Source: Spongiibacter thalassae
GTDB lineage: Bacteria; Pseudomonadota; Gammaproteobacteria; Pseudomonadales; Spongiibacteraceae
Direction of reading: 5' to 3'
DNA length: 64,000 nucleotides
Assembly (NCBI RefSeq): GCF_012272835.1
Contig: NZ_JAAWWK010000001.1
Span: 496,001-560,000, forward strand
The notes beneath the pieces are model-generated. The model was not told the origin of the DNA. It did not search any database and saw nothing but the letters and a program-made list of their open reading frames with translations. The translations under genes were made by a program, and so were the position numbers. Position 1 is the stretch's first letter. Each line of letters opens with the position of its first letter. Positions 11,500 through 39,604 of the stretch are shown here, piece by piece.

Positions 11500-14148
11500 T
11501 CAGATACCTGCCAGAACTTTTAATTCGTCGCTCATCTGGCCCAGTTTGTCCTTTGCTGCCTGCCACTGTGTCGTCCACTCGCTCAGATCCTGACATTGGG
11601 CGTTGGTTTCCAATTCAGCAACTTCGTCATAAAAGGCCTTCGACGAAAAATTGCCGAGTGCGCTTTTTATTCGGTGTACTGATGAGGATAGCTGTTTTCT
11701 GTCACCTTGGGCGAGGACGCGGTCTATTTCATCTGTCATTTCAGGGAGTTCGCTGAGGAAAAGCTGCGCAATTGTCGCAATCAAGGCGGGCTTGTTATGG
11801 GTGATATCCCTTACGCGGGCTTCATCTAGAATCATTTGCAGCATGTCCTTTGGCACTAAGCCCTCGCAATTGGCCGGCGTTAGTGGCATTTCATCAGTCG
11901 GATAAGGGAGGCCCTCAACCTGGTGTATCAATTGCTCCGGATCAATCGGTTTACTTAAATATTGGCTCATACCTGCTGTAATACAGCGCTCTTTATCATC
12001 GGCCATGGCATGGGCAGTAAGGGCAATGATGGGTATATGATGCCCGTTTTGGGGCTCAAGTTCACGGATTTTGCGCGATGCGGCTAATCCGTCCATGACT
12101 GGCATTTGCACGTCCATGAGAATTTTGTCGAAGGGCTGTGACTGAAACTCCCGAACCGCCTCGGCGCCATTGCTGACGATGGTCAGTTTATGCCCTCGGG
12201 ATGCCAATAAGTCGCTGATGATGCGCTGGTTCACTGTATTGTCTTCGGCGATCAGCAGTGACAGGGATTTCCGTGCAGGTGCGGGCTTTTTGCCGGGCAA
12301 AAGCGTTAAATGGGGGGGCGGCGACGGCGTGCTTTGGGCGGCATTAAGGGGAAGGCGAAGGATAAATGTGCTGCCCTTGTTTACCGCGCTGTCGCAAAGT
12401 ATCTGCCCCTGCATTTGCAGTACCAACTGATGAACAATGGACAGTCCCAGACCGGTGCCTCCGGCTCTCCGTGTAAGACTGCCATCGATCTGGGTGAACG
12501 CATCGAAAATTTTGTCGAGATCCTGTTGCTCTATGCCAATGCCTGTGTCGCGGACGGTAAACTCCAGTTGCTCGCCTTCCTGTCGAAGGCTGAGGCTGAC
12601 GCCGCCGCGCTGGGTGAACTTCAGCCCATTGCCGATAAGGTTGACCAAAATCTGCTTCAATCTGACCGGGTCGCCGTGTACCCAGCGGGGTGCTGAGGGC
12701 TCGATCTGCAGTTCCAGACTCAGCTGTTTGCGGGCTGCGGTATCGCGGAATTCCCTTATGAGCAGCTGTAACTCCTGATGCAGATCAAAGTCAGATTGGC
12801 TCAGTTCCAGCTTGCCACTGCGCAGTTTTGACAGATCGAGAATATCGTTAATGATGACCAATAGTGAGCTGCCGGAGTGTTCGAGAATATCAATATATTC
12901 GAGCTGTTCTTTGCTGAGTGGCGTGGTTTTAAGCAGATTGGCGACACCGATGATGCCGTTCATCGGTGTGCGGATTTCGTGGCTCATATTGGCGAGAAAT
13001 TCCGACTGCATTCGGGTTTTTTCCTCGGCGCGCAAGCGCGCTGCGTGGGCCTCGGAAGTGCGCTGTTCGACGATTTTTTCCAGCTCGGCATTGTCCTGGG
13101 TGAGGCGGTCGATCATTCCGTCCATGGCGCGGGCAAGGATGCCGATCTCGCCGAGATCGCGGAAGTTGGCCCGCTGGCTGAGGTCGCCGGACTGCACCGA
13201 TCTCGCCAGCGTGGCAAGTGCGCGAATGGGGGCGTAAATATAACTGGCGACCTTGTAGGCGAAAAAAACGGCCAGTGCAGCAATGATAAGAATTGCCGCG
13301 TTCAGGCGCGCCAGAATGGCATTTGCCGGGTGCAGTATCTCAGCGACATCTTTTTTAACCATGATTCCCCAACCCAACTCGGGCAAAACCCGGCCGCTGG
13401 CCATGACGGCTTCGCCGCGATAGTCGAAGGCATCGCTGTATTCCATACGTTGCGCGGAAACAGGCTGGTTTAGTGGGGCTGCGCGAAGTGAATTGCCCGT
13501 GGCGAACCGAAGCGGATGCAGGGGAGTCACCTGGCCAGCGTTGTCCAGCTGAAACAATATCGACTCGCCACTTTCGCCAAAACCGTTGTAGGTGGTGAAA
13601 ATACGGGTGAAATAGCGCGCGTCGGTGGTCACACTGAGGCTGCCCACTTTGTCGCCAAAATGCATAACGTCCTGAGTCAGGTGAATTTCACTGCGTTCGG
13701 CATCGAAATCGAGTTCAACCGGGGGCTTGGAGGCGTTCGCTTCGATATGCGCTTCGTCGTTGCTGATCGTTCGCCCGGGGGCGACCACTGAGGTGATAAG
13801 GCGGTTGTCGAGGTCGTAAATACTGACCGCCTTGACGCTGCTGATCGCCATAATGGCGTTTTCCAGACTGACGGCAACGCGACCGGTGTCGATCTGGCCC
13901 TCATTGGCATAGTCGTATAAATAGCTTTTCAGGTCGGGGTTGCTGGCAATGAGTTGAACCCGGTCGCGGTGCTGGTTCAGCTGGCCATGCAGGCGCTCGA
14001 CCTGAATGGCACTGATCGCATGGAGTTCGTTCAAGGCCGAGGATTTCAGGTAGCGTACGGAATGTGAGTAGTCGACGGCACCAAAAATGATAAGCGGAAG
14101 CAGGGCGAATATGCAAAAGCTGAGTACGAGCTGCTTCAGTAGCGACAT
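11500..14148 (-). CDS. Hybrid sensor histidine kinase (sensor-HAMP-HisKA-HATPase-REC-Hpt)
   Basis: 882 aa. Transmembrane helices at about 5-25 and 281-300 bracket a periplasmic sensor region (dCache-like by size). HAMP follows at about 300-352, a coiled coil to 385, HisKA with His390 (SHEIRTPMNG), and HATPase with N-box (NLIGNGLKF), DTGIGI and GGTGLGLS. A receiver has Asp679 (ILMDVQMPVMDG), and a C-terminal Hpt domain has His825 (VHRIKSALGNF). The architecture is a BarA/ArcB-like internal phosphorelay. The next gene, a GGDEF response regulator, is the obvious recipient. The signal is unknown. Confidence 0.93.
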   Translation of the reverse strand: MSLLKQLVLSFCIFALLPLIIFGAVDYSHSVRYLKSSALNELHAISAIQVERLHGQLNQHRDRVQLIASNPDLKSYLYDYANEGQIDTGRVAVSLENAIMAISSVKAVSIYDLDNRLITSVVAPGRTISNDEAHIEANASKPPVELDFDAERSEIHLTQDVMHFGDKVGSLSVTTDARYFTRIFTTYNGFGESGESILFQLDNAGQVTPLHPLRFATGNSLRAAPLNQPVSAQRMEYSDAFDYRGEAVMASGRVLPELGWGIMVKKDVAEILHPANAILARLNAAILIIAALAVFFAYKVASYIYAPIRALATLARSVQSGDLSQRANFRDLGEIGILARAMDGMIDRLTQDNAELEKIVEQRTSEAHAARLRAEEKTRMQSEFLANMSHEIRTPMNGIIGVANLLKTTPLSKEQLEYIDILEHSGSSLLVIINDILDLSKLRSGKLELSQSDFDLHQELQLLIREFRDTAARKQLSLELQIEPSAPRWVHGDPVRLKQILVNLIGNGLKFTQRGGVSLSLRQEGEQLEFTVRDTGIGIEQQDLDKIFDAFTQIDGSLTRRAGGTGLGLSIVHQLVLQMQGQILCDSAVNKGSTFILRLPLNAAQSTPSPPPHLTLLPGKKPAPARKSLSLLIAEDNTVNQRIISDLLASRGHKLTIVSNGAEAVREFQSQPFDKILMDVQMPVMDGLAASRKIRELEPQNGHHIPIIALTAHAMADDKERCITAGMSQYLSKPIDPEQLIHQVEGLPYPTDEMPLTPANCEGLVPKDMLQMILDEARVRDITHNKPALIATIAQLFLSELPEMTDEIDRVLAQGDRKQLSSSVHRIKSALGNFSSKAFYDEVAELETNAQCQDLSEWTTQWQAAKDKLGQMSDELKVLAGI

Positions 14149-28126: not shown

Positions 28127-28386
28127 TGTCATCTGATCAACACGGTGAACGTCCACGCTGGCTGGACCGGCCGGAAACCGTCACCCTGATCGTCCATTCG
28201 TTGTGGGTGATTTGCGCCGCGCTGGTGGTGGCGGAATTTTTCTACCACAAGCATCCCTATTTTCGTTTTGATGGCAGCTTTGGCTTCTACGCCATTTTCG
28301 GTTTTGCCGCCTATTGCTTTATTGTGCTCAGCGCGAAAAGGCTGCGTCGATTAATCAAGCGGGAGGAGGGCTACTACGATGAGTGA
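28126..28386 (+). CDS. Small two-helix membrane protein of the antiporter operon
   Basis: 86 aa. Two hydrophobic helices (about 21-40 and 52-70) separated by a short loop YHKHPYFRFDGSFGF, with a charged C-terminus KRLRRLIKREEGYYDE. The family is not one I can name. It is locked into the operon by overlaps with both flanking antiporter subunits, so it is probably an accessory subunit of the complex. Confidence 0.75.
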   Translation: MSSDQHGERPRWLDRPETVTLIVHSLWVICAALVVAEFFYHKHPYFRFDGSFGFYAIFGFAAYCFIVLSAKRLRRLIKREEGYYDE

Positions 28387-30073
28387 GTTGCTACTCAATC
28401 CTGCCATTTTGATGATGGCCGCTGGCCTGGTAGCGCTGGTATTGCCCCGGCGTGCGCTGGGCATCTGGGCGGTTGCGGTGCCTCTGGCGACACTGTGGCT
28501 GCTGTGGACCCTGCCCCAGGGTGAGGCGGGTCGGTTAACGGTTTTTGGTATCGAACTGATTACTCGACGCATTGACGGTCTGAGTTTCGTCTGGGCAGTG
28601 ATCTTTCATATTGCGGCCATTCTTGCCGGTCTCTACGCCTGGCATGTGCAGGACAGGGTGCAGCAGGTCGCGGCGCTGATCTATGCCGGCTCGGCCATTG
28701 GTGCGGTATTGTCCGGTGATTTACTGACCCTGTTCCTCTACTGGGAACTGACAGCCCTGTCCTCGGTGTTGTTGATCTGGGCCTCGCGGAACCCCACCGC
28801 GACAAAGGTTGGTTTTCGCTATCTGGTGATACAGGTGATTTCCGGTCTGCTGCTGATGTGCGGCGCACTGGTGCTGTACCGTGATCAGGGTACTGTAGCC
28901 TTTGGACATATCGGCCTGGAAGGTTTGGCTGGTTGGCTGATATTTATTGCCTTCGGCATTAAATGTGCCTTCCCGTTGCTGCACAACTGGTTGCAGGATG
29001 CCTATCCACAGGCGACACCGACCGGCACTGTGGTGTTGTCGGCCTTTACCACCAAGCTGGCGGTGTATGCCCTGGCCCGTGGCTTTGCCGGTGAGGAACT
29101 GCTGATTACGATCGGCGCGGTAATGACTGCTTTCCCGATTTTCTTTGCTGTCATCGAAAACGACCTCCGCCGGGTGCTGTCCTACAGCCTCAACAACCAG
29201 TTGGGCTTTATGGTGGTCGGGGTTGGTGTCGGCACCGAGCTGGCGCTGAACGGGGCGGCAGCCCACGCCTTTGCCCATATTCTCTACAAGGCTCTGCTGT
29301 TTATGTCGATGGGGGCCGTGCTGCACCGTGTGGGCACGGTGAAGGCCAGCGAGCTGGGCGGACTTTACAAGTCGATGCCGGTCACCACGATTTTCTGCAT
29401 TATCGGCGCGATGTCTATCTCGGCCTTTCCGCTGTTTTCCGGTTTTGTCACCAAGTCGATGATTCTTACCGCCGTGGGTGGTGAGGGCTATTGGGTGATC
29501 TGGACAGTGCTGCTGTTCGCCTCGGCCGGGGTACTGGACCACTCCGGTATCAAGGTGCCATTTTTTACCTTCTTCTTCCACGATGCTGGCCATCGAGTGA
29601 AGGAAGCGCCGTGGAATATGCTGCTGGCGATGGGTATCACCGCCTTTCTGTGCATTGGCATCGGCGTTTATCCCGAGCCGTTGTACGCGATTTTGCCCTA
29701 TCCGGTCGACTACGCGCCCTATACCGCTGCCCATGTGATAACCCAGCTGCAGCTACTGATGTTTGCCGCACTGGCCTTTGCGGTGCTGATGCGCAAGGGC
29801 TGGTACCCGGAGGAAATACCATCAACCAACCTCGATACCGACTGGCTCTACCGGCGTTTACTGCCGAGAGTCATTCGCTCGCTGTTGAATGGTATGTGGG
29901 CCATTGATCGCGGGGCCAGAGCAGGGGCTATGGCAGTGGTGAATGGCGTTGTTGAGCGTATGGCGAAAAGCCACGGCCCTGAGGGATTGATGTCGCGGAA
30001 TATTTCAATCGGGGCAATGGTGAGCTGGGTGTCCTTGTTTCTGGCGATCTACCTGTTTCTGAGCTTTTATTGA
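28379..30073 (+). CDS. Antiporter-type membrane subunit, copy 3 (MrpD/NuoL-like)
   Basis: 564 aa. Complex I NuoL/M-type core: LTLFLYWELTALSSVLLIWASR with the key glutamate, GIKCAFPLLHNWLQDAYPQATPTG and AHAFAHILYKALLFMSMGAVLH. A longer C-terminal part (after about 470: RKGWYPEEIPSTNLDTDWLYRR, then a last helix) resembles the extended subunits found in Mbx/Mrp-like clusters. Third proton-channel-type subunit of the operon and its last gene, overlapping the small membrane protein by 8 bp. Confidence 0.88.
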   Translation: MSELLLNPAILMMAAGLVALVLPRRALGIWAVAVPLATLWLLWTLPQGEAGRLTVFGIELITRRIDGLSFVWAVIFHIAAILAGLYAWHVQDRVQQVAALIYAGSAIGAVLSGDLLTLFLYWELTALSSVLLIWASRNPTATKVGFRYLVIQVISGLLLMCGALVLYRDQGTVAFGHIGLEGLAGWLIFIAFGIKCAFPLLHNWLQDAYPQATPTGTVVLSAFTTKLAVYALARGFAGEELLITIGAVMTAFPIFFAVIENDLRRVLSYSLNNQLGFMVVGVGVGTELALNGAAAHAFAHILYKALLFMSMGAVLHRVGTVKASELGGLYKSMPVTTIFCIIGAMSISAFPLFSGFVTKSMILTAVGGEGYWVIWTVLLFASAGVLDHSGIKVPFFTFFFHDAGHRVKEAPWNMLLAMGITAFLCIGIGVYPEPLYAILPYPVDYAPYTAAHVITQLQLLMFAALAFAVLMRKGWYPEEIPSTNLDTDWLYRRLLPRVIRSLLNGMWAIDRGARAGAMAVVNGVVERMAKSHGPEGLMSRNISIGAMVSWVSLFLAIYLFLSFY

Positions 30074-30437: not shown

Positions 30438-33308
30438 CTAGCTCACAATGGCGAGGCGCAGGGCGTTGAGGTTCAACTGCAATTGTGACAGATATTGCTG
30501 GCCTTGTTCGGTGCTGGTGTCAAAGTGTTGCAAGGCTTCTTCACCAATATCGGGGTTGCGCTGAGCCAGTGCCTGCAAACGCGAACGCTCGCTGTTGCGT
30601 TGCTTGTTGTAGTTCTCCAGGGCCTGCTGGCGCCAGGACGACTCGGTGACCTTGCCCTGGGCTTCCACAGTGTTCAATAACTCGGTCAAGGGATCTCTGA
30701 TCTGCCGCATCAATGCGGGTATCAGGCTGCGCTTGAGTTTCTGGCAGAGGCCGTTTAACTGCTGGTGGCTGACCTTGTCGGCGAGATTCCGTCCTTTCGC
30801 ATCCATCAGCAAACGCTCGCTGTGGGTGGGCAGGTAGCGGTCGAGTTGCAGGCTCACCGGGGCGCGCACTGCGGGGCTGTAGTAGGCCTCAAGCAGCAGG
30901 GTGCCGGGTGGCAAGCCCTTTACTGACAGGGTGGCAATACAGGCGCTGCCAAAGTCACCATTGGCGATCAGATCCATCGCGTCCCGCAACAGGGGATGTT
31001 CCCAGGTGAGAAAGGCCATATCCTCCCGGCTGAGGGCGCGACGGCGATCAAAGGTGCCGGTCAGTCCCTCCTCGGGGAGCTGGCTGAAAGCGTCACTGAT
31101 CATATGGTCGCCGGGGCGAAGAATGATGGTATTGTCGCTGTGGTCTTCGTGCTCCAGCCCGAATTGATCGGCAAGCTGCTCGACATAATCGGCGAGCTCG
31201 CCACTGCGCTGTTCCTCTTCGACCTGTGCGACAAGGCGCTGTGCGACGGCCTTGCGACAGGAATTCAGTTCCAGCAGGCGGTTGCGCCCGGAGTGCAACT
31301 CCGCGCGCAGCTCGGCGGCCCGCTGGGCACCTTGGGTAATCAATGCGCCAACGTCGGTGTTGCTGGTCAGACACTGCTGCAACCGGGCGTCGAATTCATT
31401 CACCATTGCGCTGCCGATAGTGCAGGGCTCATCGAATATTGCGAGGGCGTCCCGGTACCAGCTGAGCAGGTCCTGCTGGGCAGAACCGCTGTAGTAAGGC
31501 ACATGGATATTGACCTCACCGACACGACCGATGCGGTCCAGACGACCAATGCGTTGCTCCAGCAGGTCGGGATTCAGCGGCAGGTCGAACAACACCAGAT
31601 TTTCGGCAAACTGGAAGTTGCGGCCCTCACTGCCGATTTCCGAGCACACCAGCAACTGGGCGCCATCGTCGGGGTCGGCGAAATAGGCCGCGGCGCGGTC
31701 GCGCTCAAGCAGACTCAGCTCTTCGTGGAACACCGCACTGGCAATGCCCCGGCGCAGGCGCATAAACAGCTCCAGCTCCCTGGCGGTTTCGGTATTCGCA
31801 CAAATCAGCAGGGTGCGGGCGTCGGGTTCCTGTAGCAGGAGTTTTTCCAGCCACTGTACTCGGGGGTCACTGCTGGTCCAGTCTTCGCCGAGAACCAGTT
31901 CAGGCTGTAACTGTGCGGCGAGTTCCAGCTCCGGGGCGACCTGTGCATACAGCGCGGGGGCTTCGAGAGGGTGTTCGTGGAGGCGTCTGGCGGGAAAGCC
32001 GCCCACCGAGGCGCGGCTGTTACGGAACAGACTGCGCCCGGTGCCGAAGCGGTCGAGCAGTGCCGCTATGGCATCGTCGACGGCGCTGTCGCTACCCTGT
32101 TGCAGGGCGCTGAGCAAATCAGTGTCGAGGTACTCGGCCAATCGCGGGTTGGCCAGGGCCGCCGTGGCGTCTTCCTGCAGGCTGCCGATCAACTCACTGA
32201 TGTCACTGTAGCTGCTCTGCTCCTGACGGAAGGCGTTCAGGTCGCTGTAACGCTCTGGGTCGAGCAGGCGTAGTCGCGCGAAGTGCCCTTCGATTCCGGC
32301 ATTCTCCGGTGTCGCGGTCAGCAGTAATACCGAAGGAATGCTGGCGCACAGCTTTTCCAATAGCTGGTAACCCTTTGAGCTGTTGCCGTCTTCCTGCCAT
32401 TGCAGGTGGTGGGCTTCGTCAACCACCAGTGTGTCCCAGCCCGCGTCGGCCAATTGCTGGCCGCGACGGGGGTGCTCGGCTAACCAATCAACAGAGGCGA
32501 TAATCAGCTGTTCACTCTCAAAGGGATTTTGCTCTATCTCCTTTTCCGCTTCTTCGTCGAAGAAGATCGTGTCGGCGTCGTCCCGATAGGGATCGATTTC
32601 CCGGCAGCGGGCTTCATTAAAGATGCTGAAGTTGAGGTTGAAGCGCCGGCGCATTTCCACCAGCCATTGGTGTACCAGACTTTCCGGCACCAGAATCACG
32701 ATGCGTTTAATGCGTTCGTCTAGGTATTGCTGGTGCAGAATCAAGCCGGCTTCAATGGTTTTACCCAGGCCGACTTCATCGGCGAGAAGCACTCGCGGTT
32801 GAGCCCGCTGGGCCACACTGTCGGCAATATAGAACTGGTGGGGAAGTAATTCCACCCGGGCGCCGAGCAGGCCGCGGCTGTGATTCGCCGCGGCGCGGTT
32901 GCGTTGTTCAATCGTGCTGACCCGTAACTGGAAGCGGCGGGGGTGGTCGAGTTGTCCGGCTAACAGCCTGTCTTTGGCGCTGTGCAGTTGAATCTGCGCA
33001 CTGAGAATTTGCTCCGGCACCGGGTGTACATTGCCCTCGGCGTCTTCGGAAAAATACACCAGGCAACCATTGTGCTCCTGCACTTCGCGGACCTTGAGCG
33101 GCGCCAGTTCAGGAACATTGATCTCGTCCCCGGGCTGGAACTGTACCCGTGACAGGGGCGCACGGTCAGCGGCGTAGGTGCGCTCCTCCTCAACGGCGGG
33201 AAAGGCGATGACCACGCGGCGATTGATGGCTTCAAGAATGATGCCCAGGCCCAGGTCGGGCTCCGGGGTACTGATCCAGCGCTGGCCGGCGATAAAGGGT
33301 TCAGACAT
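30438..33308 (-). CDS. rapA: RNA polymerase-associated ATPase RapA (SWI2/SNF2 family)
   Basis: 956 aa, close to the E. coli length (968). N-terminal Tudor-like domains (GQRWISTPEPDLGLG) are followed by the ATPase lobe, with Walker A GLGKT at 180-184 and DEAH at 297-300. The second helicase lobe contains LLVCSEIGSEGRNFQFA and DLPLNPDLLEQRIGRLDRIG. RapA binds RNA polymerase and helps it recycle after termination or from stalled complexes. Single-copy housekeeping gene; start supported by the conserved N-terminus. Confidence 0.96.
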   Translation of the reverse strand: MSEPFIAGQRWISTPEPDLGLGIILEAINRRVVIAFPAVEEERTYAADRAPLSRVQFQPGDEINVPELAPLKVREVQEHNGCLVYFSEDAEGNVHPVPEQILSAQIQLHSAKDRLLAGQLDHPRRFQLRVSTIEQRNRAAANHSRGLLGARVELLPHQFYIADSVAQRAQPRVLLADEVGLGKTIEAGLILHQQYLDERIKRIVILVPESLVHQWLVEMRRRFNLNFSIFNEARCREIDPYRDDADTIFFDEEAEKEIEQNPFESEQLIIASVDWLAEHPRRGQQLADAGWDTLVVDEAHHLQWQEDGNSSKGYQLLEKLCASIPSVLLLTATPENAGIEGHFARLRLLDPERYSDLNAFRQEQSSYSDISELIGSLQEDATAALANPRLAEYLDTDLLSALQQGSDSAVDDAIAALLDRFGTGRSLFRNSRASVGGFPARRLHEHPLEAPALYAQVAPELELAAQLQPELVLGEDWTSSDPRVQWLEKLLLQEPDARTLLICANTETARELELFMRLRRGIASAVFHEELSLLERDRAAAYFADPDDGAQLLVCSEIGSEGRNFQFAENLVLFDLPLNPDLLEQRIGRLDRIGRVGEVNIHVPYYSGSAQQDLLSWYRDALAIFDEPCTIGSAMVNEFDARLQQCLTSNTDVGALITQGAQRAAELRAELHSGRNRLLELNSCRKAVAQRLVAQVEEEQRSGELADYVEQLADQFGLEHEDHSDNTIILRPGDHMISDAFSQLPEEGLTGTFDRRRALSREDMAFLTWEHPLLRDAMDLIANGDFGSACIATLSVKGLPPGTLLLEAYYSPAVRAPVSLQLDRYLPTHSERLLMDAKGRNLADKVSHQQLNGLCQKLKRSLIPALMRQIRDPLTELLNTVEAQGKVTESSWRQQALENYNKQRNSERSRLQALAQRNPDIGEEALQHFDTSTEQGQQYLSQLQLNLNALRLAIVS

Positions 33309-33673
33309 AGGGTGCTATTTGGCCTGGTTGCGGTTATGCATTTTTTCGGGGCGGGAATGGTACGCGGCATAGCCCGATAGTGGAAGGTTTGCCGTTAAAT
33401 TGGGGCCATTTTTACCACTATGGACGGGGCGGTGGTGAAGGGGCTTGTTCTGAAATGGTGCTTAAAGATGCAGAGTTTATGCACCAATACGTTCATGCCG
33501 GTGCAAAAGCTGGGCGCGCAGCGGGAGCTTAAAGCGTGGGGAAATGGCCTCTTGATGCCAGGAAAATATAAAATATTTTATTTTAAACAATGACTTACAT
33601 TCAATTTTTGTGATTGGCAAGCTCTTTGCTGTGTACCGGGTACTAGCCCAACAGAGTAAGCCGCGATCACCCT
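33309..33673. promoter_or_regulatory. Divergent control region between rapA and the redox operon
   Basis: 365 bp without a gene. It holds the promoters of rapA (left) and of the FAD/cytochrome operon (right). Residues 33570-33620 are strongly AT-rich. An imperfect inverted motif, AAGATGCAGAG at 33465-33475 with TTATGCACCAA at 33477-33487, loosely resembles an NsrR (nitric oxide repressor) site: the left arm matches 8 of 11 positions and the right arm only the ATGCA core. It lies almost 190 bp before the start codon, so assignment is weak. Confidence 0.4.
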
Positions 33674-35686
33674 ATGACCAGCCAAGCCCCCATCATTGAT
33701 GTTGCCGCCAGCTTGCATCCCTCCGTGGACCCGCGGCCAATTATCATTGTCGGCACCGGGCCGGTGGGAATTCGTTGTGCAGAAGAATTGCTCAAGCGCG
33801 GCTGCCAGCGGGAAATCCTGCTGTTCGGCAATGAGCCCTGGGAACCCTACGACCGCATTCGCCTGTCGTCATTGCTGGCCGGAGAAGTGCGTCTGGAGTC
33901 ACTGCAAACTGCGCCGAACCTCGATCAGCAGGGCAGAGTGAACTGTCATTACAACTGCCCGATTGTCGGTATCGACCGCTATCAGCAGCGTATTCTCGAT
34001 GTGGAAGGGCGCCAATACAGCTATTCGGCACTGATCCTGGCGACGGGATCCCAGCCTTTCCTGCCAGGTATTCCCGGCATTGACGCCAAGCGGGTTTACA
34101 CCTTCCGCGACCTGAACGACACCCAGCAATTGATGGCCCGTTTGGCCACCGCTCGCCATGTGGTGGTCATCGGTGGTGGCCTGCTGGGACTGGAAACCGC
34201 ACGGGCAATGAGCCGCTGCGACACCAGAGTCACGGTGATCCAGCAGGCGGATCGGCTGATGAATCGACAACTGGACGGCGATGCGGCGGCATTGCTGGCC
34301 GAGAATATTCGCGCACAGGGGGTGGATGTGCTCCTTGGGGAAGGGGTACGCGAGGTGGTGTGCAATGATCAACGTGGCCGCCCTGAAGTCATCGGAGTGC
34401 GCCTGCGCAGTGGCCAGCTGCTGGACTGCGATACGGTGGTGGTGTCGGCGGGTATTCGGCCCAATATCGATCTTGCGCGCCGTTCAGGGCTTGTGGTGGG
34501 GCAGGGTATTGTCGTTGACGAGGGCCTGGCTACCAATGCGCCGAATATTCACGCCATTGGCGAATGTGCCGAGTTCCGTCAGCAACTGCACGGTCTGGTC
34601 GCACCGGGTTATGAGCAGGCAGCAGTGCTTGCCGCCAATCTTTGTGGTGAGCCGAGTCGCTACCTTGGCTCGGTGGCCGCGACCCAGCTGAAGGTCGTGG
34701 GCCTGCCGGTCTTCAGTATTGGTGAAACCGAGGGTGAAGGTCGTCGCTCCTGGCGTATTGCCGCCTGGCGATACCGCGATGCGGCCACAGGCTGCTATCG
34801 CAAAATTGTGTTGCGGCGTGGACGGATTGTCGGTGCTATCGGTGTCGGCGACTGGTCCGAGGTACGGCGGGTGCAGGCGGCAGTCAGCCGCGGCGACCGG
34901 GTTTCCTGGCTGCAAATCGCTCGTTTCAGTCGCAGCGGTATGCTGTGGGCCGAAGACGACGGTGCCGATGTGGCCAGTTGGCCAGCAACGGCCCTGATCT
35001 GTAATTGTCGCGGCGTCCAGCGCGGCCAATTGACGGCGCTGTATAAGGCGCTCGGAGATAAACAACAGGTGATTGCGCGCTGTGGAGCGTCGACGGTATG
35101 CGGTTCCTGTGCACCACTGGTGGCGGAACTGTGTGGTGAAAAGGCCGGAGCCCAAACCCTGCCAGTGCAACGCAAACTGTTGGCCAGTGGCGTGTTGGCG
35201 TTGCTCGTTGTCGCGCTACTGGCCGCGGTGCCACCTATCGACTTTGCCAGCACTGTGCAGGTGGATATCCCCTGGGATCGCCTGTGGTCAGATGGCCTGT
35301 ACAAGCAAATCAGTGGCTATGCCATTGTGGCGATGGTGGTGCTGGGCTTGTATCTCTCGGTAAACAAGCGGCTGTCGGCGCTGAGTTGGGGGCGCTTCTC
35401 CCTGTGGCGGCTGGTGCACACCCTTACCGGGCTGGCCGGCCTCGGGGTGCTGGTAGCCCACACCGGCCTGCGTCTGGGGGAAAATCTCAATGCGCTGCTG
35501 ATGATGAATTTTCTTCTGCTGGCATTGCTTGGTGCGGTGTCGGCGGGGGTGGTGGCCGCGGAGTCGCAGTTTAGTCCACGCTGGGGCAAGCGGCTGCGTC
35601 GGCTGTGTACCTGGGGGCACTTGTATCTGGCGTGGCCAATACCGGCCCTGCTCGGCCTGCATATTTTCTCGGTGTATTACTTCTGA
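33674..35686 (+). CDS. NirB-like FAD oxidoreductase fused to BFD [2Fe-2S] and a four-His membrane domain
   Basis: 670 aa. Residues 22-330 form a pyridine nucleotide-disulfide-type oxidoreductase: FAD motif GTGPVG (27-32), NAD(P) motif GGGLLG (167-172) and second FAD motif HAIGECAE. Residues 441-490 are a BFD-like [2Fe-2S] domain with CNC (443, 445) and CGSC (476, 479), as in the NirB large subunit, but the sirohaem domain is missing. Residues 503-670 are a membrane domain with about five helices and conserved-looking His582, His596, His649 and His663, compatible with two b-type haems. The stop overlaps the multihaem cytochrome gene (TGATG). Likely role: moving electrons from cytoplasmic NAD(P)H into the membrane. 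Confidence 0.82.
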   Translation: MTSQAPIIDVAASLHPSVDPRPIIIVGTGPVGIRCAEELLKRGCQREILLFGNEPWEPYDRIRLSSLLAGEVRLESLQTAPNLDQQGRVNCHYNCPIVGIDRYQQRILDVEGRQYSYSALILATGSQPFLPGIPGIDAKRVYTFRDLNDTQQLMARLATARHVVVIGGGLLGLETARAMSRCDTRVTVIQQADRLMNRQLDGDAAALLAENIRAQGVDVLLGEGVREVVCNDQRGRPEVIGVRLRSGQLLDCDTVVVSAGIRPNIDLARRSGLVVGQGIVVDEGLATNAPNIHAIGECAEFRQQLHGLVAPGYEQAAVLAANLCGEPSRYLGSVAATQLKVVGLPVFSIGETEGEGRRSWRIAAWRYRDAATGCYRKIVLRRGRIVGAIGVGDWSEVRRVQAAVSRGDRVSWLQIARFSRSGMLWAEDDGADVASWPATALICNCRGVQRGQLTALYKALGDKQQVIARCGASTVCGSCAPLVAELCGEKAGAQTLPVQRKLLASGVLALLVVALLAAVPPIDFASTVQVDIPWDRLWSDGLYKQISGYAIVAMVVLGLYLSVNKRLSALSWGRFSLWRLVHTLTGLAGLGVLVAHTGLRLGENLNALLMMNFLLLALLGAVSAGVVAAESQFSPRWGKRLRRLCTWGHLYLAWPIPALLGLHIFSVYYF

Positions 35687-37056
35687 TGGGCGGGCGTAGC
35701 AGTACGGGCACAGGCCCGCAGCGTGGTTTAGCCTGGCTATGGTGTGTCTGGGCGGTTGCCACTGTGGTGGGGCTGTTATGGTTTGTCTGGCCCTTGTTGG
35801 TGGATGAGCCGCCGGAACAGTTTCTGCCGGGTCCGACCAGCCACGGCCATCATCAGATCGAAATGGCATGCGGCGCCTGCCACAGCGACGCGTTTGGTGG
35901 CGGCGAGGTGCTGCAAAGCGCCTGTATCAGCTGTCATGGCGATGAGTTGAAAGCGGTGAGGGACTCCCACCCGAAGGCGAAATTTACCAACCCTCGCAAT
36001 GCCGATCGTATAGAGCAGCTGGATGCTCGCTACTGTGTGACCTGTCATGTTGAACACCAACCTGACAAAACCGAGCACATGGGTGTCACGATGCCCGAGG
36101 ACTTCTGCTACGAGTGCCATCAGGATGTCGCCGAGGTCCGACCCAGCCACGACGGCATGGGCTTCGACACCTGTGCCAGCTCCGGCTGCCACAATTTTCA
36201 CGACAACCAGGCGCTGTACGAAGACTTTCTGCTTGAACATGCCAGCGAGCCGATGTTCAAGGAGGTCGCCGCCATCGTCGCGAAGAACGCGCCGCAGTAT
36301 CACCGTCAGTTACCTCCGGTGACGGTGGCCGATGCCCCCGCGCAGATTGATTCGGCGCCGGAGGTGTTGAATGACTGGCAACACAGCGGTCATGCCCAGG
36401 CGGGGGTAAATTGCTCCTCCTGCCACGCCGACCCCGAAGCGGCAGCGGATGCGCTGAGTTGGGTGGCATCCCCCGATCACACCGTGTGCGCCAGCTGCCA
36501 CAGCGAAGAATCCCGCGGCTTTCTGGCCGGCAAGCACGGTATGCGTTTGGCTCAGGGCCTGCCTGCGATGACCGTTGCCGAGGCGCGAATTCCCATGCAT
36601 GCCGACAGCGCCCATCTGGAGTTGAGTTGCAACAGCTGCCATAGCCCCCACGCCTTTGATGTGCGGCGGGCCGCGGTGGACTCCTGTGTTGGCTGCCATA
36701 ACTCCAACCACGTGCAGAATTTTGCCAACTCTCCCCACGCGGGTCTGACAGAAAATCCGGCGCAGCCGGGCAGCGAGCAGGTCACCTGTGCAACCTGCCA
36801 CATGCCGCGCACCACCCTGCCAAACGGCCGGGTAGTGGTTGAGCACAATCAGAACGCCAACCTGCGGCCCAACGAAAAAATGCTGCGGGGGGTGTGTATG
36901 AACTGTCATTCGCTGAGCTTTTCCATCGACGCGCTGGCCGATCCGGCGCTGATCGACAGCAACTTCAAGGGGCGGCCCAGTGTACATATTCCCTCGGTGG
37001 ACATGGCAGTAGAGCGGGATAAAAACCGCGCAGTAAAACCGTCCTTGTACAACTAA
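35686..37056 (+). CDS. Undecahaem c-type cytochrome, membrane-anchored
   Basis: 456 aa from ATG at 35686, overlapping the preceding stop. One N-terminal helix (about 16-36, WLWCVWAVATVVGLLWFVW) acts as uncleaved anchor, and the rest is periplasmic. I count ten CxxCH motifs (CGACH, CISCH, CVTCH, CYECH, CSSCH, CASCH, CNSCH, CVGCH, CATCH, CMNCH) plus one CX4CH (CASSGCH), so up to 11 haems. The spacing and NrfB/cytochrome c3-type repeats suggest an electron conduit, but no family-specific active site (such as CxxCK of NrfA) is seen. Confidence 0.85.
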   Translation: MGGRSSTGTGPQRGLAWLWCVWAVATVVGLLWFVWPLLVDEPPEQFLPGPTSHGHHQIEMACGACHSDAFGGGEVLQSACISCHGDELKAVRDSHPKAKFTNPRNADRIEQLDARYCVTCHVEHQPDKTEHMGVTMPEDFCYECHQDVAEVRPSHDGMGFDTCASSGCHNFHDNQALYEDFLLEHASEPMFKEVAAIVAKNAPQYHRQLPPVTVADAPAQIDSAPEVLNDWQHSGHAQAGVNCSSCHADPEAAADALSWVASPDHTVCASCHSEESRGFLAGKHGMRLAQGLPAMTVAEARIPMHADSAHLELSCNSCHSPHAFDVRRAAVDSCVGCHNSNHVQNFANSPHAGLTENPAQPGSEQVTCATCHMPRTTLPNGRVVVEHNQNANLRPNEKMLRGVCMNCHSLSFSIDALADPALIDSNFKGRPSVHIPSVDMAVERDKNRAVKPSLYN

Positions 37057-37146
37057 GCGTGTGAGGAGGGAGGTTAATAAAAACGGCGACAGCAGTAGTA
37101 AATCGAGAGTGGTATTGAGCAGTATTAAATCAATCAGGAGAGAGTG

Positions 37147-37710
37147 ATGAAAAAATTAGTGGCGGCATTACCCCTGTGTCTGGTGATGGTCGGTTGTGGC
37201 GGCGAAGCCAAACAGAGTGGGATCGAACCCAAGGTCTACACCGATTCCCTGTTCGCAGTGATGAAGGCGGATCGCACCAACTACACCAAAATGATTATCA
37301 AGCGATTGGGGCCAGCTGGCGCATCGGCCATTGTTCCCGACGAACACTGGGAAGACAAACCCAATGGCGCGCCGCTGCCGGCCCAGATGTTTCGCTACGG
37401 CGCAGAAGCGGTGGCGGAGATGACCAGCGACTTCAGCTACAGCCTGCAATCGCTGTGGCCGGTGAATTCCCAGAACGGGCCGCGAACCGAAGTGGAAAAG
37501 GTGGGACTGACCTATATCAACGATAACCCCGGAGAAAACTTCTATGGCGAAGAGGAGCTGGGCGGCGTGAAGTACTTCACCGCGGTCTACCCCGATGTTG
37601 CAGTTGCCGCGCCCTGTGTTGATTGCCACAACGGCCACAAGGACACCCCGCGCACCGATTTCAAATTGGGCGATGTTATGGGCGGAGTGGTAATTCGCGT
37701 ACCCATGTAA
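37147..37710 (+). CDS. Tll0287-like (DUF3365) c-haem lipoprotein
   Basis: 187 aa from ATG at 37147, with AGGAG six bases upstream; a GTG directly before it is a less likely start. The signal peptide ends in MVGC (lipobox), giving a lipoprotein. The mature part has the DUF3365/Tll0287 haem-sensor fold pattern (VKYFTAVYPDVAVAAPCVDCHNGH), with a single CVDCH haem site near the C-terminus. Such domains bind c-type haem and occur as sensors or small redox proteins. Member of the cytochrome operon. Confidence 0.82.
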   Translation: MKKLVAALPLCLVMVGCGGEAKQSGIEPKVYTDSLFAVMKADRTNYTKMIIKRLGPAGASAIVPDEHWEDKPNGAPLPAQMFRYGAEAVAEMTSDFSYSLQSLWPVNSQNGPRTEVEKVGLTYINDNPGENFYGEEELGGVKYFTAVYPDVAVAAPCVDCHNGHKDTPRTDFKLGDVMGGVVIRVPM

Positions 37711-37735
37711 ACGCCACTTGTCGGGGGCAGCAGCA

Positions 37736-38056
37736 ATGAAAGGGATCAGTGTAATCACTCTGGTGTTGGCAACGGTGCTCAGCGGTTGTGCTGAGGACCC
37801 ACGGCTGGCTCTCGGCGAGGAGGTGTATCGCCAGAACTGTAAAGTGTGCCACGCCCAGGGCATTAACGGTGCACCCATACTGGGTAACAGCAAAATGTGG
37901 GGCCCCCGCCTGGGACAGAGCCACGAGGAGCTGTTGTCCCATGCCCTGTCGGGCTACGGGTTGATGCCCGCCAAGGGCGGCAAAACCCATTTGACTGATG
38001 AACAGGTGTCAAACGCGATTTTTTATATGACATCCCAAGTGGAAATAAGTAACTGA
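37736..38056 (+). CDS. Small class I c-type cytochrome lipoprotein (c5-like)
   Basis: 106 aa from ATG at 37736. The signal peptide ends in the lipobox VLSGC. The mature part is a monohaem cytochrome: CKVCH haem site, GAPILGN and a distal methionine in GYGLMPAKGG, as in cytochrome c5. It would carry electrons between the multihaem protein and a terminal partner in the periplasm. 25 bp after the Tll0287-like gene and 11 bp before the globin gene. Confidence 0.88.
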   Translation: MKGISVITLVLATVLSGCAEDPRLALGEEVYRQNCKVCHAQGINGAPILGNSKMWGPRLGQSHEELLSHALSGYGLMPAKGGKTHLTDEQVSNAIFYMTSQVEISN

Positions 38057-38067
38057 ACGCTGAGGAA

Positions 38068-38499
38068 ATGATGATGACCCCGGAACAGAAAAACCTGGTA
38101 CAGGAAAGTTTTGAAAAAGTCGCGCCGATCTCCGAGCAGGCCGCGGCGATCTTTTACGGCAAGCTGTTTGAGCTGGACCCCAGCCTCAAGCCCATGTTCA
38201 AAGGTGATATCGAGGAGCAGGGTCGCAAGCTGATGACCATGCTGGGTACGGCGGTTCGCTCCCTCGACAATCTGGAAGGACTGGTACCTGTGGTGCAAAA
38301 GCTCGGCGTGCGCCATGTGGGCTACGGCGTGAAAACCAGCCACTACGCCACAGTGGGTACGGCCCTGCTGGACACCCTGGCCGCCGGGCTTGGCGAGGAC
38401 TTTACTCCAGAGGTCAAAGAGGCGTGGACGGTGGTGTATGGCGTATTGTCCAGCACGATGATTGCCGCTGCTGACGAGGCGATGAACGCCAAGGCCTGA
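38068..38499 (+). CDS. Single-domain globin (bacterial haemoglobin)
   Basis: 143 aa; three consecutive ATGs (38068, 38071, 38074), of which the later ones are better spaced from GAGGA. One globin domain: MTPEQKNLVQESFEKVAPISEQAAAIFYGKLF, proximal His83 in LGVRHVGYGVKTSHY and a C-terminal helix. There is no flavin reductase domain, so it is of the Vitreoscilla-type single-domain class. Those bind O2 or NO. Encoded last in the redox operon, which hints at an NO- or O2-related task for the whole cluster. Confidence 0.88.
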   Translation: MMMTPEQKNLVQESFEKVAPISEQAAAIFYGKLFELDPSLKPMFKGDIEEQGRKLMTMLGTAVRSLDNLEGLVPVVQKLGVRHVGYGVKTSHYATVGTALLDTLAAGLGEDFTPEVKEAWTVVYGVLSSTMIAAADEAMNAKA

Positions 38500-38731
38500 G
38501 CCGGCATTTGGCGCTGCGGCTGGCGAGATCGCCCCCCGACTCGCGGTTGCAGCGCCTGTTTTTACGATACCGGACATCGTCGGCCCGATTGGTGTTCTCT
38601 GTGCTCTTATCCCTTGTCCCTGCCTGTTACTGATTCCTCTTCGCCGGATTTCGGCTACCCTGTATCTGAGCTGCGGCACCGGGGATTACCTGCCCGATGC
38701 AATGTCGCCGCGCCGGTATACGGGGGAGCAT

Positions 38732-39604
38732 GTGAAGACTCAGAAGAAGAAACAGCGTCGGTGGTCATACAGCACTCCGGGATGGTTGAGTGTGTGGGGC
38801 CTGTGGCTGATGGTAGCGAATCCAGGGCAGGCCGAAAGCCTGCCTAAATGGGAGTTGGGAGCGGGAATAGCGGCCTTTAGCCTGCCGGATTACCCCGGCG
38901 CAGACCAGCAGACTGAGTACGTATGGCCAATACCCTACGTCGTGTATCGCGGTGAATACCTGCGCGCCGGACGCGGCGGCTTGCGCGGCATGCTGTACCG
39001 AGGTTCCCACCTTGAGCTGGATGTGTCTACCGGTGGCAGCCTGCCGGTGAACAGTGATGACAACGAGGCCCGTCGCGGCATGGAAGACCTCGACCCAAGC
39101 TTTGAACTGGGGCCGTCACTGCGGGTGAAATTTATCGACGATGAAGACCGCCAATTTCAGCTGCGCTTGAACGCCCGGGCGCTGGTGTCGGTGGAAGATA
39201 CCTTGAAACTGGGTTATCAGGGCTGGCTATTGAACCCTGAGCTACGCTGGATCAGCCAGCTCGGCGAAGGCTTGCAGGTCGACGGCATTTTGCAATGGCG
39301 CTACGGCAGCCGGGGTTACCACGATCACTTTTATACGGTGACCGACAAAGACGCCCTGCCAGAGCGCCCGGCCTATCAGGCTGAGCGGGGCCACAGCGGC
39401 TACGGTGCCGGGTTTTCACTGCGCTGGCAGCCTGACCGCGACTGGCGCTGGAGTGTGGGTTATCGTTACTTCGACCTCCACAATGTGGCCTTCGACGACA
39501 GCCCGCTGTTTCGCCAGAACCACGGGCACTACCTCTTTCTGTCCTTTTCCCGAACACTGTGGCGCTCTCAGCGAATGGTGAGCGAACCTGTCAGTGAACT
39601 GTAA
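38732..39604 (+). CDS. MipA/OmpV family outer-membrane protein
   Basis: About 290 aa from GTG at 38732, chosen because GGGGGAG lies 4-5 bases upstream and the product then begins with a signal peptide (charged start, hydrophobic SVWGLWLMVA, cleavage near GQAES). An ATG at 38702 in the same frame is the alternative. The mature protein shows the MipA/OmpV barrel pattern: WELGAGIAAFSLPDYPGADQ, YRGEYLRAGRGGLRG, and the aromatic end YLFLSFSRTLWRS. Function in this family ranges from murein-enzyme scaffolding to porin. Confidence 0.85.
   Translation: MKTQKKKQRRWSYSTPGWLSVWGLWLMVANPGQAESLPKWELGAGIAAFSLPDYPGADQQTEYVWPIPYVVYRGEYLRAGRGGLRGMLYRGSHLELDVSTGGSLPVNSDDNEARRGMEDLDPSFELGPSLRVKFIDDEDRQFQLRLNARALVSVEDTLKLGYQGWLLNPELRWISQLGEGLQVDGILQWRYGSRGYHDHFYTVTDKDALPERPAYQAERGHSGYGAGFSLRWQPDRDWRWSVGYRYFDLHNVAFDDSPLFRQNHGHYLFLSFSRTLWRSQRMVSEPVSEL

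Follow-up and report, generated by a model that had tools for sequence, protein, structure and literature searches.

A conserved flavocytochrome, multihaem cytochrome and globin operon of Spongiibacter thalassae with apparent ties to nitrate assimilation

The 64,000-nucleotide stretch of the Spongiibacter thalassae genome analysed here (contig NZ_JAAWWK010000001.1, forward strand; "the window") carries a run of five redox genes at positions 33674 to 38499, counted from the first letter of the window. We call their products FADox, MHC, Tll, cytc and the globin. An earlier note on this DNA had recognised these five genes, assigned each to a known redox family, and suggested that together they carry electrons from the cytoplasm to the periplasm, possibly for nitric oxide (NO), nitrite or oxygen. 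All five genes lie where that note placed them, and Pfam matches for each product agree with the proposed families. The features of the locus, all on the + strand, are as follows.

33456..33461, +, NtrC-like half-site TGGTGC, 159 bases 5' of the promoter element (consensus presumed; half-site picked after the sequences had been viewed)
33481..33486, +, NtrC-like half-site GCACCA, 134 bases 5' of the promoter element (same basis)
33615..33630, +, sigma-54 (-24/-12) promoter-like element TGGCAAGCTCTTTGCT, 59 bases before FADox (score 34.0/35.5; consensus presumed)
33674..35686, +, FADox, an NAD(P)H/FAD reductase of the NirB-N/rubredoxin-reductase type, a BFD [2Fe-2S] domain and a dihaem-b membrane domain in one protein (sequence, Pfam, AlphaFold model)
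33740..34582, +, FADox FAD/NAD(P) domain, residues 23-303 (Pyr_redox_2; fold as in FAD reductases such as putidaredoxin reductase)
34994..35131, +, FADox BFD-like [2Fe-2S] domain, residues 441-486 (Pfam, conserved Cys)
35168..35680, +, FADox membrane domain, helices from residue 499, two b haems predicted (model, conserved His, weak DUF4405)
35686..37056, +, MHC, an 11-haem c-type cytochrome of 456 aa with a single N-terminal membrane helix (Pfam, haem motifs)
37147..37710, +, Tll, a Tll0287-like lipoprotein with a single c-haem (Pfam, CXXCH)
37736..38056, +, cytc, a c5/CBB3-type cytochrome c lipoprotein with His/Met ligands (Pfam, conserved M77)
38068..38499, +, single-domain globin (Pfam Globin, conserved residues)
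38510..38563, +, intrinsic-terminator-like hairpin and T run 3' of the globin (folding energy against shuffles)

The spacing of these genes is as tight as had been described: the FADox stop and the MHC start meet at 35686 (TGATG, an overlap of 1 base), and the gaps between the last four genes are 90, 25 and 11 bases. Upstream, the score of the sigma-54-like element was equalled by 0 of 200 shuffles (these shuffles, like those used below for NtrC, NorR and the sigma-54 sites of the named loci, preserve base composition only). A scan of 33300-38900 listed no sigma-70-like site on the + strand and one on the - strand, with 2.0 expected. The hairpin and T run behind the globin have a folding energy of -34.2 kcal/mol (z -2.65; as good in 2 of 200 shuffles); a simple terminator scanner did not list this hairpin, probably because its stem is interrupted. 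One transcription unit is the best explanation for this arrangement, although we infer it from sequence signals. Past the hairpin, directly 3' of the operon, the + strand at 38702-39604 encodes an outer-membrane-like protein that resembles MipA by eye.

Relatives of the operon were compared in two sets of loci. From 411 stretches that encode MHC relatives in a collection with one genome per species, the best 80 form the named set. The order set holds 32 loci from the order of the window, namely those of 30 of the 31 MHC-bearing genomes plus G003 and G016. The two sets share genomes, for example locus L108 and the G015 locus. Residue conservation was read from proteins of 0.8-1.35 times the reference length after duplicates had been dropped.

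FADox (670 aa) combines three redox elements in one polypeptide. Pfam recognises Pyr_redox_2 (8.4e-57), Rubredoxin_C (3.6e-15) and Fer2_BFD (4.5e-6; 27.3 bits vs a cut-off of 26), and the BFD cysteines C443, C445, C476 and C479 are kept in 87 of 87 sequences. The four histidines that had been noticed in the membrane domain are just as invariant (H582, H596, H649 and H663, 87/87). They are arranged as H582-x13-H596 and H649-x13-H663, a pairing which we take to be a sign of two stacked b haems, and the domain is predicted to hold two such haems. Residues 23-496 align with positions 1-474 of NirB, with the same FAD/NAD and BFD layout. The NirB model itself gives 375.6 bits, below its cut-off of 578.35, with the sirohaem/4Fe-4S half not covered. 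The AlphaFold model of FADox has a mean pLDDT of 82 and ends in the membrane domain; its closest folds are FAD reductases such as putidaredoxin reductase and a tungsten aldehyde oxidoreductase chain. For the membrane domain we found no relative among solved structures at E up to 1, and the weak Pfam matches at E up to 0.1 were to DUF4405 (10 of 15 members) and cytochrome b561 (3 of 15).

MHC does contain the 11 haem sites that had been counted, ten as CXXCH and one as CX4CH (C163-H169). Every one of the 11 motifs recurs throughout the 96 aligned sequences, which comprise the window protein, 65 from named loci and 30 from order loci, and the CX4CH spacing is kept in 95. The same alignment contains exactly 11 further histidines conserved at ≥99% and no CXXCK motif. 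Since these histidines suffice for bis-His ligation of every haem, MHC looks like an electron carrier by sequence, and one of the haems could still be open and catalytic. Over their Pfam cut-offs are Cytochrom_c3_2, the MtrC/MtrF II/IV domain (PF22113, 43.0 vs 30 bits), Cytochrome_C7, Paired_CXXCH_1 and, barely, Cytochrom_C552 (24.2 vs 24.1 bits); DmsE is matched below its cut-off. The best match of the MHC profile to a solved structure is local, to 6r2q chain A (3.7e-9), which is labelled cystathionine beta-synthase in the structure file and which we take to be the MtrCAB complex. Local matches to NrfA and to octahaem nitrite reductases (E 5e-9 to 1.5e-8) cover stretches of the C-terminal half. 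We rejected an assignment based on fold: the model is poor (mean pLDDT 63), Foldseek returned no match at E ≤ 0.001, and the top entries, hydroxylamine oxidoreductase (HAO) and octahaem nitrite reductase, came at E 0.0018 or worse with a TM score of about 0.3. A search for plasmid copies of MHC gave no match, and PHROGs gave none for MHC or Tll.

The three smaller proteins also have invariant residues. Tll matches PF11845 (3.7e-17; 63.6 bits vs a cut-off of 24.1) and keeps its CXXCH in 96 of 96 sequences. None of these 96 has a cysteine past residue 30 outside that motif, so that the axial cysteine of Tll0287 is missing; no relative was found among solved structures at E up to 0.1. Cytc matches Cytochrome_CBB3 (8.9e-13), with C35, C38, H39 and M77 in 57 of 57 sequences, and both Tll and cytc have lipoprotein-like N-termini. 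The globin (Pfam Globin, 9.1e-19) shows no signal sequence by eye. It retains Y30, Q51 and H83, which presumably correspond to B10, E7 and the proximal position, in 59 of 59 sequences. Among solved structures the globin profile best matches 3s1i (1e-39), which we take to be Hell's Gate globin I; the window protein itself matches Hmp (2.7e-21), under the Hmp cut-off.

The five-gene set is a real module. The earlier note had staked its proposal on the gene order recurring in other genomes, and FADox, MHC and Tll indeed follow each other in the same order in 77 of the 80 named loci. Three loci depart from this: L163 and L177 are cut off by a contig end within the operon, and in L170 the best matches to Tll and cytc are found at another place in the locus. 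Downstream, 27 named loci have cytc and globin, 23 globin only, 15 cytc only and 12 neither. The record labels of these relatives cover Gamma-, Beta- and Alphaproteobacteria and, as metagenome-assembled genomes, Verrucomicrobia, Nitrospirota and Poribacteria; Spongiibacter pelagi and Alcanivorax nanhaiticus are two cultured marine bacteria among them. Among the 293 genomes of the window's order, MHC occurs at good score in 31, from 13 families; 15 of 46 genomes had weak MHC matches only (E 3.4e-8 or weaker) and were counted as lacking the operon. The three genes are consecutive and in the same order in 29 of 32 order loci, FADox being missing or partial in L061, L062 and L064. The 29 include L055 (genome G188), whose genes are in pieces: at L055:5151-8559 FADox runs through three frames and MHC through two, so that either this copy has decayed or its sequence contains errors. 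Of the 31 MHC-bearing genomes, 30 encode the FADox membrane domain, which occurs in 0 of the other 262 (30/293 in total). The sole MHC carrier without it is G033, where the contig begins at MHC. Distances between the genes are correlated as well (Mantel r 0.57-0.77 for six gene pairs, each above all 200 permutations). The smaller alignments comprised 27 of 31 MHC, 22 of 29 FADox, 23 of 33 Tll, 18 of 19 globin and 19 of 22 cytc sequences and 15 membrane domains; L055, L062 and L064 were omitted from some protein sets, their genes being broken or cut. Chance assembly of five unrelated haem and redox genes, for which only the patchiness of cytc and globin speaks, is refuted by an order conserved across records labelled as several phyla, the 30/31 vs 0/262 co-occurrence and the correlated divergence, and we give it practically no credence.

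Where the globin is absent, a truncated haemoglobin (trHbN; Pfam Bac_globin) often replaces it. In 72 named loci 2.5 kb or more of downstream sequence is available; the globin alone occurs in 44 of them, trHbN alone in 13, neither in 15 and both in 0 (Fisher p 5e-7); the order set divides into 17, 5, 9 and 0 (p 0.012). The trHbN gene is followed by one for a ferredoxin-type NAD(P)H reductase in 11 of the 13 named loci that have it and in 3 of the 5 order loci. That two globin families share one slot argues for globin activity as part of the module.

The promoter element recurs with the genes. Using -24/-12 and NtrC consensus patterns that we presume to be the accepted ones, we found sigma-54-like sites (score ≥31.5, within 300 bases) in 40 of 72 named loci; the reverse strand had 0, and shuffling predicts 0.46. 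The other 8 of the 80 loci were outside this count, having no FADox match or less than 150 bases upstream. In another set of 30 upstream regions, 15 reach 31.5, three of them with the site more than 390 bases away. As a control, glnA was obtained from 18 of 20 sampled genomes (out of 33 that bear the operon); 10 of its 18 upstream regions reach the same score, and the glnA of the window's own genome scores 27.0. An NtrC protein over the model cut-off is encoded in 32 of the 33 operon-bearing genomes, the window's own among them. In the 200 bases above the promoter of 14 chosen loci (14 of the 30 upstream regions), TGGTGC/GCACCA half-sites number 15, with 2.76 expected, a figure that is not a clean test because the half-site was picked after the operon and glnA regions had been viewed. 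NorR-like sites were no better than shuffles in 29 regions (lowest p 0.15), and an NsrR-like reading of the upstream AAGATGCA stretch was considered by eye only; neither was adopted.

The same promoter type marks nitrate genes of the window's own genome. In locus L086 (contig C10 of G000, the window's genome) two divergent sigma-54-like sites, at 14118 and 14373 and each scoring 34.5/35.5, occupy the interval from the likely narK start (14053) to the likely nirB start (14478), so that the window operon and these nitrate genes share a promoter type. A further such site precedes a porin gene near narK/nirB. This Alginate_exp/Opr-type porin (L086:9097-10305, L063:4203-5450 and others) recurs with nrtABC and is a candidate nitrate porin.

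In relatives, the operon often lies beside nitrate genes. In eight order loci an NrtA-type binding protein, an NrtB-type permease (recognised among the ORF clusters in seven of the eight), a nitrate-type ATPase (TIGR01184 over cut-off) and an Alginate_exp porin are encoded just 5' of it. In G026 and G068 it is embedded in a large nas cluster that also contains narK, nirB, a gene for a NasT-type ANTAR protein, a NasA-like gene and nrt genes. With strict limits set on identity, nrt, nasST, nir or nas neighbours accompany 33 of 80 named loci and 10 of 32 order loci, as raw counts uncorrected for background. For these counts weak ABC-protein matches were removed and the NasB query was ignored, since it matches FADox. 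A sigma-54-like site, a nas neighbour or both accompany 55 of 72 loci.

Co-occurrence points in the same direction, with p-values that serve only as a guide because the genomes are related: NirB is present in 28 of 31 operon-bearing vs 154 of 262 other genomes (p 3.4e-4), a NasA-like protein in 24 of 31 vs 132 of 262 (p 0.004) and NarG in 6 of 31 vs 63 of 262 (p 0.66). We write NasA-like because the query (913 aa, from L076) does not itself reach the curated cut-offs for NasA/NasC or for formate dehydrogenase, and because the matches listed in the window's genus, own genome included, are mostly partial at 36-40%. Since NirB is present in 28 of 31 operon-bearing genomes, we rejected the operon as a NirB substitute. 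A tie to respiratory nitrate reduction was likewise set aside for lack of a NarG association, with NapA, NirK/NirS and NorB not searched. Together, the sigma-54 promoters, the NtrC-like half-sites and the nrt/nasST/nir neighbours place the operon, in our best reading of these sequences, in nitrate assimilation. This revises the general NO, nitrite or oxygen setting proposed earlier.

The nitrate loci contain further gene groups. Beside the nir cluster and near narK/nirB of the window's genome, L086:4580-8881 encodes a DUF3034 protein, a 154 aa protein that matches nothing in Pfam, an FMN-binding protein, a PepSY_TM protein and a cupredoxin behind a sigma-54-like site; the nitrogen regulon may have a further periplasmic redox line in this group. 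Between narK and nirB, L075:2449-6603 and L078:5299-9436 carry a second NasA-like molybdoenzyme gene followed by a gene whose product joins a 4Fe-4S ferredoxin to a DmsC-like membrane anchor (Pfam, L075 pair only). A PP2C phosphatase-protein kinase fusion adjoins a narK-like gene in two genomes (L086:10830-12548, L089:11019-12707). In the window itself, 28379-30073 encodes a hydrophobic 564 aa protein that by eye resembles proton-pumping subunits of complex I or Mrp antiporters; genes like it lie immediately 5' of this one.

How might such an operon work? Sigma-54, probably with NtrC as activator, would turn it on within the response to nitrate and nitrite assimilation. FADox would oxidise cytoplasmic NAD(P)H and pass the electrons through FAD, the [2Fe-2S] cluster and a transmembrane pair of b haems to the membrane-anchored periplasmic MHC, and from there to the haem lipoproteins Tll and cytc and presumably to an end acceptor in the periplasm. 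We infer this order, and the export of electrons, from domain anatomy. The conduit suggested in the earlier note draws good support from a single protein that joins a flavin and a [2Fe-2S] cluster to two H-x13-H pairs and is encoded beside an N-terminally anchored MHC. In the cytoplasm, the globin or trHbN would remove NO, most likely by dioxygenation to nitrate, and NO is a plausible substrate by analogy with known globins of nitrate assimilation. The reading we favour is that the module as a whole protects cells that assimilate nitrate against reactive nitrogen on either side of the inner membrane, with the globin acting inside and the periplasmic haem proteins outside. It is favoured because a nas-linked globin and flavoprotein of Bradyrhizobium, Bjgb and Flp, protect from NO, and we put its probability at roughly 50%.

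Several observations weigh against this interpretation. The full NtrC palindrome is absent upstream in the window, where half-sites only are present, and GCAC-N7-GTGC palindromes were confined to L057-L060, which come from four genomes of a single genus. The window is devoid of nas genes: among 16 nas-type queries NasB alone gave a match, and that match is FADox itself. The full-length NirB of the same genome is encoded on another contig (G000:C10:219495-221882). Within the genus the operon is patchy, being present in 4 of 18 genomes vs 18 of 18 for NirB. Neither a sigma-54-like site nor a nas neighbour accompanies 17 of 72 loci, and the neighbour counts are raw ones. As 15 of the 72 loci with room downstream have neither globin type, the globin is not indispensable. 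Finally, a stand-alone Tll0287-type protein of Pseudomonas putida bound neither O2 nor NO strongly, according to the accessible part of its description (PMC12889525).

Alternatively, MHC itself could be a nitrite, NO or hydroxylamine reductase of the NrfA/octahaem type and the operon a periplasmic ammonia-forming pathway for nitrogen nutrition. The resemblance of the C-terminal half to NrfA and octahaem nitrite reductases, the marginal Cytochrom_C552 score, the identity of the best Foldseek folds and a promoter of the nitrogen-starvation type are what such an enzyme might be expected to show. Even so, the lack of CXXCK, the 11 further histidines that suffice for all-bis-His ligation, the poor model behind the fold matches and the NirB already present in most operon-bearing genomes make this unlikely. 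We are equally doubtful of its broader form, in which an NAD(P)H-driven line under NtrC and sigma-54 reduces periplasmic NO, nitrite or hydroxylamine so that nitrogen-starved cells keep or recover nitrogen. If true, this assimilatory counterpart of Nrf would rest on a new flavocytochrome, made of the front half of NirB and a dihaem-b domain, and on a new family of 11-haem cytochromes.

Somewhat less probable again is an overflow valve for NAD(P)H, in which MHC and the c5-like cytochrome would feed a terminal oxidase when nitrogen shortage leaves excess reductant. The His/Met cytochrome downstream, the nitrogen-limitation type of promoter and an anatomy that brings electrons to the periplasm are consistent with a valve. 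However, many loci have no cytc match (the 12 with FADox-MHC-Tll only and the 23 with a globin and no cytc, where divergent cytochromes could have been missed), and a valve leaves the nrt/nas linkage and the mutual exclusion of two globins unexplained. We find it harder still to credit an extracellular or iron-reducing conduit of the Mtr/Und kind, reducing metals or supplying iron to nitrate and nitrite reductases. The MtrC/MtrF domain and sub-threshold DmsE matches, the top structural hit to 6r2q and the lipoprotein-like starts of Tll and cytc are reminiscent of such systems. Against it, the sole barrel recognised among ORF clusters common to at least 4 of 33 order regions, where no MtrB model was searched, is the nrt-linked porin, which lies near 11 of 80 named loci, 10 of them with nrtA.

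Each component can be set against better-known relatives. Like the assimilatory NADH nitrite reductase NirB, FADox has an FAD/NAD and BFD layout, with a dihaem-b membrane domain replacing the sirohaem half. Flavocytochromes of the NADPH-oxidase and ferric-reductase type carry two b haems on paired H-x13-H motifs and a flavin on the cytoplasmic side. FADox is predicted to share both traits, but belongs to the NirB/rubredoxin-reductase class with a BFD cluster, has no FNR module and would deliver to a multihaem cytochrome. The catalytic haem of NrfA-type enzymes is bound by CXXCK with a lysine ligand. Compared with NrfA, octahaem nitrite reductase and HAO, to which its likeness is distant, local and confined to the C-terminal half, MHC has 11 haems, no CXXCK, an N-terminal 5-haem part and a membrane helix. 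Its likeness to MtrC/MtrF, MtrA and DmsE rests on PF22113, the weaker DmsE score and 6r2q; unlike these cytochromes, MHC is membrane-anchored, has 11 haems and sits beside a flavocytochrome, and no barrel partner was recognised. The window globin resembles 3s1i and the globin domain of Hmp in profile, and differs in being single-domain, following Tll or cytc, and being replaceable by trHbN.

For Tll, the accessible part of PMC12889525 describes sCache_heme proteins that, like Tll, have PF11845 with CXXCH, and among them a stand-alone periplasmic form. Judged by the same part, Tll departs from Tll0287 in lacking the axial cysteine and in sitting in a redox operon without fusion to a signalling domain. 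The Pseudomonas putida form was assigned a redox role there, which fits Tll as an electron carrier here.

The closest system is the narK-bjgb-flp-nasC nas operon of Bradyrhizobium, in which, as far as the accessible part of PMC4724949 goes, Bjgb and Flp protect from NO, Flp is cytoplasmic and thought to feed NasC, and NasS-NasT are involved. On this account each system pairs a single-domain globin with an NAD(P)H flavoprotein in one gene cluster and has a genetic tie to nitrate assimilation. The Bradyrhizobium operon lacks the membrane haem domain, multihaem cytochrome and haem lipoproteins, all present in the window operon, and includes NasC, whereas the window operon has no gene for an assimilatory nitrate reductase or transporter. 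We found no description of an operon of this composition in the open-access literature searched, and the accessible parts of PMC9230427 and PMC7096707 describe none.

What is known here, then, are the parts and the theme of NO defence tied to nas genes; what is new are the flavocytochrome, its multihaem partner and their regulatory setting in nitrate assimilation. Bacterial nitrate assimilation is usually drawn as wholly cytoplasmic, with NasA and NirBD. A widespread operon tied to this pathway and exporting electrons over the inner membrane would extend it by a redox arm in the periplasm, and gives a concrete place to ask how nitrate assimilators handle the NO and nitrite that arise from assimilation.

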